This document shows, in pieces, positions 30,031 to 42,589 of a DNA stretch of 64,000 nt. The notes beneath the pieces are model-generated. The model did not search any database, was not told the DNA's origin, and saw nothing but the letters and a program-made list of their open reading frames with translations. The position numbers and the translations under genes were made by a program. How positions within the stretch are numbered: the first letter of the stretch is position 1; each line of letters opens with the position of its first letter. The DNA is taken from contig JAKLLB010000003.1 of assembly GCA_023150345.1 (NCBI GenBank), forward strand, positions 53,950 through 117,949. The letters run 5' to 3'. The stretch comes from Aquabacterium sp. (lineage in GTDB: Bacteria; Pseudomonadota; Gammaproteobacteria; Burkholderiales; Burkholderiaceae_C).

Positions 30031-30999
30031 ATGGCTGTCTTCACCACGGTGTCCGCCCAAGAGGCCGCCGCGCTGCTGGCCCGCCTGGACGCTGGCGAAC
30101 TGCTGGCGCTGGATGGCATCGGCTCAGGCATCGAGAACACCAACTACTACGTCGACAGCACCCGCGGTCGCTGGGTGCTCACGCTGTTCGAGCGGCTGAC
30201 GTTCGAACAACTGCCCTTCTATCTGCGGCTGATGCAGCACCTGGCGCAACGCGGCCTGCCGGTACCCGAGCCTCGCGTTGACGCTCAGGGCCAGATCCTT
30301 CATTGCGTCGCCGGAAAGCCGGCAGCGCTGGTCAACGCACTGGCGGGCCACCCGCAGCTGGCCCCTGACCTGCACCACTGCGCGCAGCTCGGTGCGCTGC
30401 TGGCACGCATGCATCTGGCCGTGGTCGACTTCCCCCTCGAGCAGCCCAACCTTCGCGGCCTGGCCTGGTGGTGCGACATGGCCCCGAAGCTGCTGCCGCA
30501 CCTCGGCGCCGCACAACGAGGCTTGCTCGCCGATGAACTGGCGTTCCAGCAGCAGCTGGCCCACTCGCCGGCGTACGCCGCCTTGCCCAGAGGTGCCGTG
30601 CATGCCGACCTGTTTCGCGACAATGCGGTCTTCGACGGTCTGACCGGCCACGAGAAGCTCACCGGCTGCTTCGACTTCTATTTCGCCGGGACCGATACCT
30701 ATGTCTACGATCTGGCGGTATGCCTGAACGACTGGTGCATCGACGACGAGTCCGGACGACTCGACGATACGCGCGCGGCCGCGCTGGTTCAGGCCTACGA
30801 ACAGTTCCGCCCGCTGGCCGCCGCCGAGGCGCGGCTGCTCCCCGCGCTCATGCGGGCAGCGGCGCTGCGGTTCTGGCTGTCGCGCCTGGGTGACCTGCAT
30901 CTGCCCAGGCAGGCCGCGCTGCTCGAACCCAAGGATCCCACGCACTTCGAGCGGGTGCTGCGCGAGCGCGTGGCTGATCCGTGGCACCCGACACGATGA
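30031..30999 (+). CDS. thrB: Homoserine kinase (choline-kinase-like type)
   Basis: Phosphorylates homoserine on the way to threonine. 322 residues, a member of the aminoglycoside phosphotransferase/choline kinase fold used as ThrB in many beta- and gammaproteobacteria, not the GHMP type. Active site HADLFRDN with His191, Asp193 and Asn198; second acidic motif CFDFYFAGTDTYVYDLA. The N-terminal IGSGIENTNYYV segment is the nucleotide loop. Neighbours are not threonine genes; the membrane protein downstream is 19 bases away and may be co-transcribed. Confidence 0.94.
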   Translation: MAVFTTVSAQEAAALLARLDAGELLALDGIGSGIENTNYYVDSTRGRWVLTLFERLTFEQLPFYLRLMQHLAQRGLPVPEPRVDAQGQILHCVAGKPAALVNALAGHPQLAPDLHHCAQLGALLARMHLAVVDFPLEQPNLRGLAWWCDMAPKLLPHLGAAQRGLLADELAFQQQLAHSPAYAALPRGAVHADLFRDNAVFDGLTGHEKLTGCFDFYFAGTDTYVYDLAVCLNDWCIDDESGRLDDTRAAALVQAYEQFRPLAAAEARLLPALMRAAALRFWLSRLGDLHLPRQAALLEPKDPTHFERVLRERVADPWHPTR

Positions 31000-31018
31000 C
31001 ATCAGTTCGCTTCACATC

Positions 31019-31867
31019 ATGGGTTTGAAACTGCGCGAGGTGCCCGCATCGCAGGGTGCGCTGTGGCTGCGCCAGGGCTTGCTGGCGTTCGGCCGGCGAC
31101 CGGTGGGCTACATGGCGTTGTTCGTCGCCTACTTCGCGGCCTTCTCGCTGGTCGGCGCCCTCACCGTGGTGGGTGAGTGGCTCGCGTTGGCATCGGTGCC
31201 CATGCTGTCGCTGGCCTACATGGCTGCCACACGCGACGTACTCGAGGGGCGGCCCGTGCGCATCTCGCACCTGCTGGCCGTTTGGCGCACGCCCAGGCCC
31301 ACCCGCCGACATGCCCTGGTGTTATGCGCGAGCTTCGGTGCACTGCTGCTCGCCGGTTTCGCCCTGATCAATTCGGCTGCGGGCGCCGAATTGGCCGAGG
31401 CGCTGCAGCCACTGTCGAAGCCGCAGCGCACGGCAGCCGATCTGGCCGAGGTGTTCACCCATCCGGCCGTGGTCAGGCACTTGAACCTGACCATGACGCT
31501 GATGGCCGTGATCTCGGTGCCGTACTGGCACGCGCTGGCGCTGGTGCACTGGGGGCGGCAAGGCGCACTGCAGGCGCTGTTTTCCAGCCTGCTGGGGTTG
31601 TGGCGCACGCGGGGTGCATTCGTGCTGTTCCTGGTCAGCTTCCTCGGTCTGTCGATGGCCACGGCCGTGCTCATCGGGCTGGTGGCTGCGTTGCTGGCAT
31701 TGGCGATCGGCGCAGGACCGCTGGTGCTCGCCATCGGAACCGCGGCCTGGCTCGGCATGGCGGCGTTGTTCTATGCCAGTCAGTGGTTCATGTTCGCCGA
31801 CACCTTCGAGTTGCCGACCGACGAGCCCCCGGCGGAATTGCCCGAACCAGCGACGCCCCCGACCTGA
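31019..31867 (+). CDS. BPSS1780-type membrane protein
   Basis: 282-residue integral membrane protein with about six helices, beginning MGLKLREVPASQGALWLRQG, the pattern of the BPSS1780 family found next to thrB in many Burkholderiales (from memory). No catalytic motif or signal peptide is visible; function is unknown. The start lies 19 bases after the thrB stop. Its stop overlaps the ATG of the PadR-like gene by one base (TGATG), so the two are translated together. Confidence 0.75.
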   Translation: MGLKLREVPASQGALWLRQGLLAFGRRPVGYMALFVAYFAAFSLVGALTVVGEWLALASVPMLSLAYMAATRDVLEGRPVRISHLLAVWRTPRPTRRHALVLCASFGALLLAGFALINSAAGAELAEALQPLSKPQRTAADLAEVFTHPAVVRHLNLTMTLMAVISVPYWHALALVHWGRQGALQALFSSLLGLWRTRGAFVLFLVSFLGLSMATAVLIGLVAALLALAIGAGPLVLAIGTAAWLGMAALFYASQWFMFADTFELPTDEPPAELPEPATPPT

Positions 31868-32433
31868 TGTCGCTGCCACACGCACTGCTGACCGCCTTGC
31901 TCGAGCAGCCGGGTTCGGGCTCCGACCTGGCGCAGCGCTTCGACCGCTCGATCGGCCACTTCTGGAACGCCACCCACCAACAGATCTACCGCGAGCTTGC
32001 GCGGCTGCAGGCGCAAGGCCTCGTGCAATCCCACCCGATCGAGAACACCCGCGGCCGCAAGCGGGCCTACCGCATCCTGCCCGCCGGACGCCAGGAACTG
32101 GCGCGGTGGGTCGGCGAACCGGCCGCGGCGTCGCCGCTGCGAGACGCGCTCATGGTGCGCCTGCGCGCCGAGGCTCTGGTGGGGCCCACGGCCCTGGTCG
32201 ATGAGATCCGGCAGCGGCTCCATGCGCACCGCGCGCAACTCGAGCTCTACCTGGATATCGAGCGTCGCGACTTCCCGCCCATCGAAGACGCCGAACCGCG
32301 CCCGCGTGCCCTGCAGCACCTGGTGCTGCATGCAGGCATCCTCTACGAGCGCAACTGGATCGATGTGCTCGAGCAAGCGCTGGGCATCCTCGACCAGCCG
32401 GCGCCGAGGCCCAGAGCACGATCGCGGTCGTGA
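31867..32433 (+). CDS. PadR-family transcriptional regulator
   Basis: 188 residues: N-terminal winged helix (LPHALLTALLEQPGSGSDLAQRFDRSIGHFWNATHQQIYRELARLQAQGLV) with the wing VRHxxEN-type GRKRAYRIL, then a C-terminal helical dimer domain typical of PadR-s2 members. PadR repressors usually control adjacent transporters or detoxification genes in response to phenolics or drugs. One-base overlap with the membrane protein gene suggests that protein is the target or shares its control. Trigger unknown. Confidence 0.85.
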   Translation: MSLPHALLTALLEQPGSGSDLAQRFDRSIGHFWNATHQQIYRELARLQAQGLVQSHPIENTRGRKRAYRILPAGRQELARWVGEPAAASPLRDALMVRLRAEALVGPTALVDEIRQRLHAHRAQLELYLDIERRDFPPIEDAEPRPRALQHLVLHAGILYERNWIDVLEQALGILDQPAPRPRARSRS

Positions 32434-32543
32434 GCGCTCGCATGGAGAACAGGCGCACGGTGCCTGGCACGCTGGAGGGGTCGCCAGGCGGTCTGCCACG
32501 CGGTGCGCTAAAGTGAGCCGCGCCTCAGACGCTGCCGCATGCC

Positions 32544-32792
32544 ATGAACCACACTCACCCACTTCGCCTGCACGCGGTCGCGCTGGCGCTGGCGGCCGCA
32601 GCGCTGTTGCCCGGCTGCGCCGTGATCACCGTCGCCGGTGCGGTCGTGGGCACGGCGGCGAGCGTCGCCGGCACCGCGATCGCCACCACGGCCAAGGTGA
32701 CCGGGCGGGTGATCGAGAAGACCGTCGATCTCGTGACCGGGCCCGACGCGCCGCCGTCAGCTGACGCTGCGGCCGGAGCCCCTGGGCGTTGA
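32544..32792 (+). CDS. Small lipoprotein
   Basis: 82 residues. The signal sequence ends in the lipobox LLPGC (Cys at about residue 25), giving a short mature lipoprotein that begins CAVITVAGAVVGTAASVAGTA. An alternating Ala/Val/Thr amphipathic segment, then VTGRVIEKTVDLVTG, follow. I recall a family of such small lipoproteins (NF038104-like) in betaproteobacteria; function unknown. Between the PadR gene and uvrD, its own unit. Confidence 0.78.
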   Translation: MNHTHPLRLHAVALALAAAALLPGCAVITVAGAVVGTAASVAGTAIATTAKVTGRVIEKTVDLVTGPDAPPSADAAAGAPGR

Positions 32793-32860
32793 TGACTGTC
32801 CGTCGATCGACGCCGCGCCGTCGCTTCGTGACCCGCAGCAAGCGCCCTTGGCGAGCGCCG

Positions 32861-35254
<2,394 letters not shown>

Positions 35255-35260
<6 letters not shown>

Positions 35261-35971
35261 CGAGCCATTCTAGAAGCGCACTCCATCGCAGCCCTGATGC
35301 TCGCCGTTGGCTGCGGCATTGCAGCCGCGCAACCACCCGCGCCGGCGCATTGCCCGCCGCGCAGCGCCCGCGTGACCGAGCACTTCCTGAGCGCCGACTG
35401 CGCCGACTGCTGGGCCGCACACGCACAGGTGCCGGCCGATGTCCGACCTGCCTCCCCTGTGAACGCAGGTTGGCGCCTCGACTGGATCGTGCCCACCGAC
35501 ACTGGCGATGGCGCCGCGTTGGCCTCCGCGGCGGTGACCGACGCGCCGGAACGCCTGGGGCGTGCGGGTTTGGCTGCACCCGCGGGTATGCAGAGCCTCG
35601 TCGTGCTCGACACCATTCGTCCCGCACCCGACACGCGCATGCAACTCGAGACGGGCCCTGCGTGGAGCGGCTACGTGGGCGTGAGACTGACCGTGCGTGG
35701 CCGGCTGCCCGCCGGCACCCAGGCCTGGGTGGCCCTCGTCGAGGAACTCGACCCGGGTGCCGAAGGTTCCGCCCAGCCCCGCGTCCTCGTGCGTCGTGTC
35801 GCCGGGCCGCTCGCGCTGCATGGCAAGGGCTCGCCAGCTCGCACGGAGCACCTGCGGGCAATTCGCTGGCCGGAGCAAGCGCTCGCGCACCGGGTGCGGG
35901 CCCGCGCCTGGATCGAGAGCACCGACGGCCGGATGCTCGGCATGGCCAGCGACACGTGCGCGCTGCGCTGA
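35255..35971 (+). CDS. Secreted protein of unknown function with CxxC motif
   Basis: 238 residues beginning MHRAILEAHSIAALMLAVGCG, a signal peptide with probable cleavage after AAA (near residue 25). The mature part has a cysteine in APAHCPP, then a CxxC motif in SADCADCWAAH, and a C-terminal cysteine pattern DTCALR. Otherwise it is rich in Ala, Arg and Val with beta-strand-like stretches. The CxxC hints at redox activity or a metal site, but no thioredoxin fold is recognisable. The start codon overlaps the uvrD start as the palindrome ATGCAT. Confidence 0.55.
35267..35272 (-). promoter_or_regulatory. -10 box of uvrD, possibly leaderless
   Basis: Minus strand reads TAGAATGGCTCGATG: a TAGAAT box ending seven bases before the uvrD start codon. 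The expected initiation point falls on the ATG itself, so the transcript may lack a 5' leader; no ribosome site precedes the ATG. The pattern matches that at thrB. Confidence 0.4.
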
Positions 35972-36019
35972 ACGGCTTGGTCGAGCGACGCCAGATCGCG
36001 ACCGTGAATCACGTTATGC

Positions 36020-36050
36020 AATGCAACGCATTCGCATTTCTGTTTAGAAT
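36020..36050 (+). promoter_or_regulatory. Promoter with Fur-like inverted repeat for the DUF1513 gene
   Basis: A -10 box TAGAAT at 36045-36050 is preceded by the perfect inverted repeat AATGC-AAC-GCATT at 36020-36032, which would cover the -35 region (about 36022-36027). The repeat and the flanking GCATTT resemble the AT-rich hexamers of Fur boxes but match the classic consensus only in part. DUF1513 genes are often in iron-uptake clusters, which is why Fur is suggested. Confidence 0.4.
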
Positions 36051-36084
36051 AGACGACCGTTTCGGCCATACGCCAAACCCTCCC

Positions 36085-39777: not shown

Positions 39778-39903
39778 CGACGGGCTCCGGTTCGGCCAGT
39801 ATGGCAGCGCCCGCCCAGGGCAGCCACCTACAATCGGCAACCCCCCAGAATGCGCATTCGTTGACAGGGCCTGCCCTGCGCGTTGTGTCCAATCGTCTCT
39901 GCC

Positions 39904-42589
39904 ATGACCGAAACGCCCAAGTCCTTCGAACCCACCGCCATCGAGGCCCATTGGGGTCCGCGTTGGGAGCAATCGGGCCTGTACGCGCCCAGGCTCGACG
40001 CGAGCAAACCGTCGTTCTCGATCCAGTTGCCGCCGCCCAACGTCACCGGCACGCTGCACATGGGCCATGCGTTCAACCAGACGATCATGGACTCGCTGAC
40101 GCGTTACCACCGCATGCGCGGTTTCAACACGCTGTGGGTGCCAGGCACCGACCACGCCGGCATCGCCACGCAGATCGTCGTGGAGCGCCAGTTGCAGGAG
40201 CAGGGCATCAGCCGCCACGATCTCGGCCGCGAGGCGTTCGTCGCCAAGGTCTGGGAGTGGAAGGAACACAGCGGCTCGACCATCACGCGGCAGATGCGCC
40301 GCATGGGCGCCAGCGTGAGCTGGGCGCACGAGTACTTCACCATGGACGACAAGCTGTCGAAGGTGGTGACCGAGACCTTCGTGCGGCTGTATGAAGAGGG
40401 CCTGATCTACCGCGGAAAGCGCCTGGTGAGCTGGGATCCGGTGCTCAAGAGCGCGGTGTCCGACCTCGAGGTGGAGAGCGAGGAAGAAGACGGCCACCTG
40501 TGGCACATCCGCTATCCGCTGGCCGATGGCTCGGGCTCGCTGGTGGTGGCCACCACGCGCCCCGAGACCATGCTGGGCGACACCGCCGTGATGGTGCACC
40601 CGGAAGACGAACGCTACGCCGCATTCGTGGGCAAGCAGGTGAAGCTGCCGATCACCGGGCGCCTGGTGCCGGTGATCGCCGATGCCTATGTCGACAAGGA
40701 ATTCGGCACCGGCGTCGTGAAGGTCACGCCCGCACACGACGCCAACGACTATGCGGTCGGCCAGCGCCACGGCCTGGAGATGATCACCATCTTCACCCTC
40801 GAAGCCACGGTGCGCACCGATTTGCCCGAGATCCCCGAGGGCCTGCGCGGGCTGGACCGCTTCGTCGCCCGGAAGGCGGTGGTGGCCGACCTCGACACCG
40901 AGGGCCTGCTGGTCGAGACCCGCAAGCACCGGCTGATGGTGCCGCGCTGCGCCCGCACCGGCCAGGTGATCGAGCCCATGCTCACCGACCAGTGGTTCGT
41001 CGCCATGACCAAGCCGGGAGCAGACGGAAGCAGCATCGCGCGCAAGGCCATCGACGTGGTGGCCTCGGGCGAGGTGAAGTTCGTTCCCGAGCAGTGGGTC
41101 AACACCTACAACCAGTGGATGAAGAACATCCAGGACTGGTGCATCAGCCGCCAGCTCTGGTGGGGCCGTGCCCTTCTCCACGCTGGGCTGGCCCGAGCGC
41201 ACGGTCGAGCAGGACCTGTTCCTGCCCTCCTCGGTACTGGTGACCGGCTACGACATCATCTTCTTCTGGGTCGCCCGGATGATCATGATGACCAAGCACT
41301 TCACCGGCAGGGTGCCGTTCCATCATGTCTACATCCACGGCCTGGTGCTCGACGCCCACGGCCACAAGATGAGCAAGAGCGAAGGCAATGTGCTCGATCC
41401 GGTCGATCTGATCGACGGCATCCAGCTCGGCCCGCTGCTCGACAAGCGCACCACGGGGCTGCGCAAGCCGGAGACCGCGCCCAAGGTGCGCAAGGCCACC
41501 GAAAAGGAGTTCCCGGACGGCATTCCGGGCTACGGTGCCGATGCGCTGCGCTTCACCTTCGCGGCCATGGCGACGCTGGGGCGCAGCATCAACTTCGACA
41601 GCAAGCGCTGCGAGGGCTATCGCAACTTCTGCAACAAGCTCTGGAATGCCACGCGCTTCGTGCTGATGAACTGCGACGGGCAGGATTGCGGCCTGGATGG
41701 CGTCGCCCAGGCGGCCTGCGCGACCCCCGCCGGCTGCGAAGCCTATCTCTCATTTTCGGCGGCAGACCGGTGGATCACCGGCGAGTTGCAGCGCGTCGAG
41801 GCGACGGTGGCCCAGGGTTTCGCCGAGTACCGGCTCGATACCGTGGCCGGCGCCATCTACCAGTTCGTGTGGGACGAGTATTGCGACTGGTACCTCGAAA
41901 TCGCCAAGGTGCAAATCGCCAGCGGCGGCGCCGCGCAGCAGCGTGCCACTCGGCGCACGCTGATCCGGGTACTGGAGACGGTGCTCCGGCTGCTGCACCC
42001 GGTGACCCCGTTCATCACGGCCGAGCTGTGGAACACGGTGGCGCCGGTGGCCGGGCGCAAGGTGTGCGACAGCGTGGCGGCGGCGCCCTACCCCCAGGCC
42101 CAGCCCGAGCGCATCGACGCCGCGGCGGACGCCTGGATGACACGGCTGAAGGGTGTGGTGGCTGCCGTGCGCAGCCTGCGCAGCGAAATGGGCCTGTCAC
42201 CGGCCGAGCGCGTACCGCTCTATGCCATCGGCGACGCCGTCTTCATTGAAGAAGCCGCCCCGGTGCTCAAGGCCCTGGGCAAGCTCGCGGAGGTGCGCTC
42301 ATTCGACGACGAGGCCGCCTTCACCCAGGCCAGCGCGCAGGCGCCGGTGGCGGTGCATGGGGCGCTGCGGCTGGCTCTGCACGTGGCCATCGACGTGGAG
42401 GCCGAGCGCGCGCGGCTGGCGCGCGAGATCATGCGGTTGCAGGGCGAAATCACCAAGGCGCAGGGCAAGCTCGGCAACGAGAGCTTCGTGGCGCGCGCGC
42501 CGGCAGCGGTGGTCGAACAGGAGCGTCAGCGGCTCGACGACTTCAGCCAGACGCTCCGCCGGCTGCAAGATCAAGCGGCTCGTCTGTAG
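39904..42589 (+). pseudogene. valS: Valyl-tRNA synthetase, disrupted by an internal out-of-frame deletion
   Basis: The first part (39904 to about 41166, 421 codons) holds the HMGH signature (TLHMGHAF), the editing domain and stops being ValRS-like right after SRQLWWG. ValRS sequence resumes in another frame at PFSTLGWPE (from 41168), with KMSKS as HKMSKSEG, anticodon-binding domain and C-terminal coiled coil, to 42589. Normal ValRS has about 50 more residues here, including the IPAW and DVLDTWFSS segments of the catalytic core. So about 150-180 bases are missing at 41166-41168 and the frame shifts. As valS is essential, an assembly fault or a second copy must be considered. Confidence 0.88.

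Follow-up and report, generated by a model that had tools for sequence, protein, structure and literature searches.

The window, a 64,000-nucleotide stretch of a draft Aquabacterium genome, carries a gene for valyl-tRNA synthetase (valS) that is written as two parts in two reading frames, with the following features.

39904–41166, forward strand: valS part 1, 421 residues, unbroken between the ATG start and SRQLWWG; includes the catalytic domain with HMGH and the editing region.
41104–41166, forward strand: left flank of the junction, whose 31-base words recur in as many as 48 of 111 related loci.
41167–41168, forward strand: valS junction, blunt, without microhomology; 149 bases of the sister genome G032 are absent.
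41167–42249, forward strand: out-of-frame run past the junction, as read by a ribosome starting at 39904; open reading frame 39883–42249.
41168–42589, forward strand: valS part 2, in the next frame, from VPFSTLGW to the stop; KMSKS loop, anticodon-binding domain and C-terminal arm.

Part 1 ends with ...CISRQLWWG at 41166 and is followed by the single base 41167, after which part 2 runs from VPFSTLGW at 41168 to the stop at 42587–42589. No single open frame from the start to the C-terminal arm was found in valS: the frame switches at 41167/41168, and translation from 39904 past the junction would terminate out of frame at 42247–42249. Profile searches matched part 1 to NF004349 with 686.3 bits, below the curated family cut-off of 704, and to TIGR00422 with 614.5 bits (profile positions 2–410 of 863), above the cut-off of 612.1; part 2 matched NF004349 with 456.1 bits (positions 450–859 of 860) and scores below both family cut-offs. 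The part 1 protein is 80–88% identical to those of 13 genus members. HMGH is kept in part 1 and KMSKS in part 2, both of which we take to act as valyl-tRNA synthetase motifs, and part 2 also retains the anticodon-binding domain and the C-terminal arm (PF08264 and PF10458) behind PF00133 positions 308–414. The frames at 41166/41168, together with the comparison with relatives described below, confirm the original prediction that valS is broken out of frame.

The frame change was also picked up by a codon-usage scan that was blind to valS and found a long, strong coding stretch on each side. In the 377,504 genome bases scanned (8,542 masked), 321 coding segments were recognised, along with five candidate frame changes, valS among them; the candidate on C210 resembles two ordinary genes that are simply adjacent, and two on L149 are weak or lie at a contig end. 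A further candidate falls at C251:12119–12128 (L142), where a gap of 10 N is flanked on either side by one and the same seven-base sequence and the coding frame changes across it, indicating that imperfect joins do occur in this genome. Comparison with the genome G018, in which gene order is largely kept from about 18.1 kb to the window end, with interruptions, gave 34 reading frames of G018, free of overlaps, that match in the window, and valS alone has two parts of more than 80% identity in two frames. Three other frames have a second, weaker match (44–51%) in another frame, probably an antisense shadow cast by an adjacent gene; for some of the remaining frames there are paralogue matches.

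At the place of the window's single base, relatives hold 150 bases (20 of 24), 138 bases (three) or 273 bases (one), all multiples of three; these 24 relatives are the valS loci that hold both flanks, five loci with one flank only being omitted. G032, the nearest genome found, with valS DNA about 94% identical, aligns gap-free to both parts (93.9% and 94.8% identity) and has 149 extra bases exactly at the junction, a figure close to the loss of about 50 residues, or 150–180 bases, that had been estimated at the outset. The lost protein stretch, HQIPAW...DVLDTW[YF]SSAL, lies within the catalytic domain and corresponds to about residues 410–461 of the Thermus enzyme 1gax, by manual count on the alignment. 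Positions 5–240 and 308–414 of PF00133 remain in valS and positions 241–307 are wanting between the two parts, the relative L026 having an unbroken 5–414. A complete PF00133 catalytic domain with DVLDTW is not present in the window valS, and the motif is kept in all 24 relatives, in line with the earlier claim that a core of this type is missing. Judging from the sequence, neither part is expected to give an active enzyme. Trp456 of the Thermus enzyme may be part of the valine pocket; this is not counted as evidence, because PMC7955072 uses the number 456 for yeast IleRS.

An intein, intron or other insertion in valS is ruled out, since bases are lost at the junction and none are gained. One might also suppose that each part is produced on its own and the pair function jointly, part 2 being opened by an in-frame GTG (41168) at which it could start; but such a split enzyme would have to do without the stretch around residues 410–461 of 1gax, including DVLDTW, that 24 of 24 relatives hold, PF00133 positions 241–307 would be wanting between its halves, and the missing stretch is found nowhere else in the searchable genome, so that we consider this arrangement hardly credible.

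Apart from the junction, both parts are well preserved. In comparison with G032, part 1 (421 codons) shows 62 synonymous and nine amino-acid-changing codon differences and part 2 (473 codons) 57 and 14, respectively, with no stops in either, for a total of 119 synonymous versus 23 changing differences, indicating that selection acted on valS up to a very recent time, or continues to do so. The conservation of both halves, which had been held to speak against old decay, is confirmed by these counts, and a decayed pseudogene can be rejected: neither part shows relaxed selection or further stops or frameshifts.

With G032 as a stand-in for the undeleted state, the junction is blunt, with 0 bases of overlap, and is bordered by 67 identical bases on the left and 140 on the right; it contains no N. 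Repeat-mediated slippage is not supported by this comparison, as there is no direct repeat or microhomology at the breakpoints, and shared 7-base words near them sit at different offsets. No strong hairpin was found in the stretch held by G032, which has a fold energy like that of shuffled sequences (z −0.05; 92 of 200 shuffles fold as well). A chimera of two organisms at the junction is unlikely, because the G032 alignment stays in order on both sides of it; identity to G032 beside the junction is 91.7% over 5,095 aligned bases on the left and 94.3% over 5,691 on the right. Local identity to G032 was also considered as a trace of mixing and discarded: the runs of 67 and 140 bases are long and not exceptional, runs of 154–921 bases being present at 30.8–35.1 kb. 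Among 54 bins of 50 bases, only two (41204–41303) exceed the left flank of the junction in shared 31-base words, and one of them, 41254–41303, is biased, as one of the peptide patterns falls there, through which 80 of the loci were retrieved; the left flank contains none of the peptide patterns used in fetching.

We then come to the question of whether the genome has another valS. Within the searchable genome, the PF00133 and TIGR00422 profiles revealed none; likewise, no second copy was found there with a 69-residue stretch of a relative spanning the lost part, and the DNA pattern at the left breakpoint located no other valS. The remaining profile matches, on C251, C210, C238 and C2, are presumably related synthetases (ileS, leuS, metG and cysS), judging by how they score and where on the profile they match. 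With a completeness of 94.37%, and with seven of 20 sampled contigs, all seven shorter than 3 kb, reading only N, the genome could hide a second valS; the proposal of a second valS elsewhere is nevertheless not supported so far, none being present in the searchable part of the 94.37% complete genome. According to PMC3386938, Burkholderia cenocepacia, a member of the same order, cannot do without valS and has no paralogue of it, and conditional valS mutants of that species failed to grow without inducer.

Among the 130 sampled family genomes, 125 match valS at E 1e-75 or better, and this genome is the only one in which, among the matches listed, a single contig carries valS in two frames; the remaining splits listed fall on different contigs or within one open frame. 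The window's 261 bases through the junction have no match in the 20 other genus genomes. In six genomes (G057, G058, G081, G104, G148 and G154) the valS match is split near profile position 470, and in three (G054, G075 and G101) near position 365, in each case on one contig and in one open frame, suggesting in-frame ValRS insertions at two recurrent places. G027 carries on C2 (L190:1329–2609, minus strand) a 426-residue frame that is a partial valS copy near its full valS, in which the SRQLWWG...DVLDTWFSSAL stretch is fused to a later part of the gene. In fragmented relatives, contig ends seemed to cluster within valS, seven of 10 ends placed by eye falling at profile positions 443–633 of 863; this was discarded, because the range was picked afterwards and a rough reading of the 130-genome sample gave under half there.

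These comparisons bear on the view that the deletion is recent and fixed, with a second valS, acquired or duplicated, in the unseen part of the genome. Such a gene could hide in a genome 94.37% complete with seven of 20 sampled contigs (<3 kb) reading only N, and partial extra copies are known in relatives, as in G027 near its full gene; but no second full-length valS occurs among the matches listed for 31 and 130 genomes, and the searchable part of the genome itself is without one. We regard this view as improbable, and it is very doubtful that the only chromosomal valS was truly deleted in its amino-acid-binding core, very recently, with valine charging provided by a gene unseen in the searchable genome.

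The surroundings of valS show varying similarity to G032. At 30598–35971 identity is mosaic, reaching 97.7% and 95.1%, as compared with 91.7–94.3% at 36.1–46.9 kb, and the longest identical run is 921 bases (33224–34144); the mosaic could come from recent exchange between lineages or from mixing in assembly. At 35971–36083 (in the region of about 35.3–37.3 kb) the G032 alignment breaks, with about 1.2 kb more in G032, and G018 is about 11 kb longer at the same spot, a variable site between conserved genes. Small gaps relative to G032 are few.

It could be envisaged that two alleles coexist in the population, an intact gene in some cells and, in others, a valS with a real, blunt deletion of very recent date, with the deleted form being the one assembled and its carriers non-viable or being lost. 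The clean junction with no N, the conservation of both parts, and the varying identity to G032 (92% to more than 97%, with the 921-base identical run), as would be seen if related DNA mixes in the lineage or in the assembly, all fit such a situation; yet a deleted form of a gene essential in B. cenocepacia, of the same order, should not be the major one, no intact allele turned up where the bin could be searched, and contamination is given as 0.11%. Overall, we consider it unlikely, and place it second, ahead of a deletion that is fixed and accompanied by a second, unseen valS, and behind a fault of assembly or consensus.

A fault in the assembly or its consensus is probably behind the broken valS, and is ranked first. 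Of the three options put forward in the original prediction, namely assembly error, a very recent deletion with a second valS, and strain mixture, it is thus the first that we favour; the broken frame, the lost core and the lack of decay stand, and the second valS is so far unsupported in the searchable genome. The points in its favour are the essentiality of valS in B. cenocepacia, the lack of a second copy in the searchable genome, the selection on both parts, the shared left flank and the imperfect join on C251, as well as the fact that the other 20 genus genomes have no match through the junction and that, among the matches listed, the 129 other family genomes give no second case of valS in two frames on a single contig. 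DNA shared between species can tangle the assembly of mixed samples. With 251 contigs, down to 512 bases in length, the draft is most likely a short-read metagenome bin; to its left the join has widely shared valS DNA, at which a mixed-sample graph would be expected to tangle, and the assembly may have misjoined the two sides of valS, dropping 149 bases. The living organism would then most likely have one intact valS at this site. The main weakness of the assembly-fault reading is the absence of N, which speaks against a plain scaffolding error, since the gap on C251 is marked by 10 N and the valS junction is unmarked. A join within a contig normally requires spanning reads. The blunt junction without overlap, and an assembly otherwise clean in this region (one split gene and few gaps relative to G032), also count against it.

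If an assembly fault is indeed responsible, the locus represents a clean case in which a draft of otherwise good quality miswrites an essential, conserved gene, next to DNA shared between species, and cautions against inferring gene loss from such drafts; if the deletion is real, a cell would have been caught losing or replacing an essential enzyme.

Comparison with known systems shows that the window gene shares with bacterial valS (TIGR00422, NF004349; structure 1gax) the domain order, the lengths of the parts and, here, a high identity to relatives, as opposed to the lack of 149 bases of the catalytic core and the broken frame, which set it apart. Assembly errors produce many apparent pseudogenes, according to the abstract of PMC11017572, and the window valS resembles these artefactual pseudogenes of draft genomes in that a conserved gene is broken in the draft and the rest is intact; the cases named in that abstract are frameshifts and internal stops, whereas the window valS is a gene without 149 bases.
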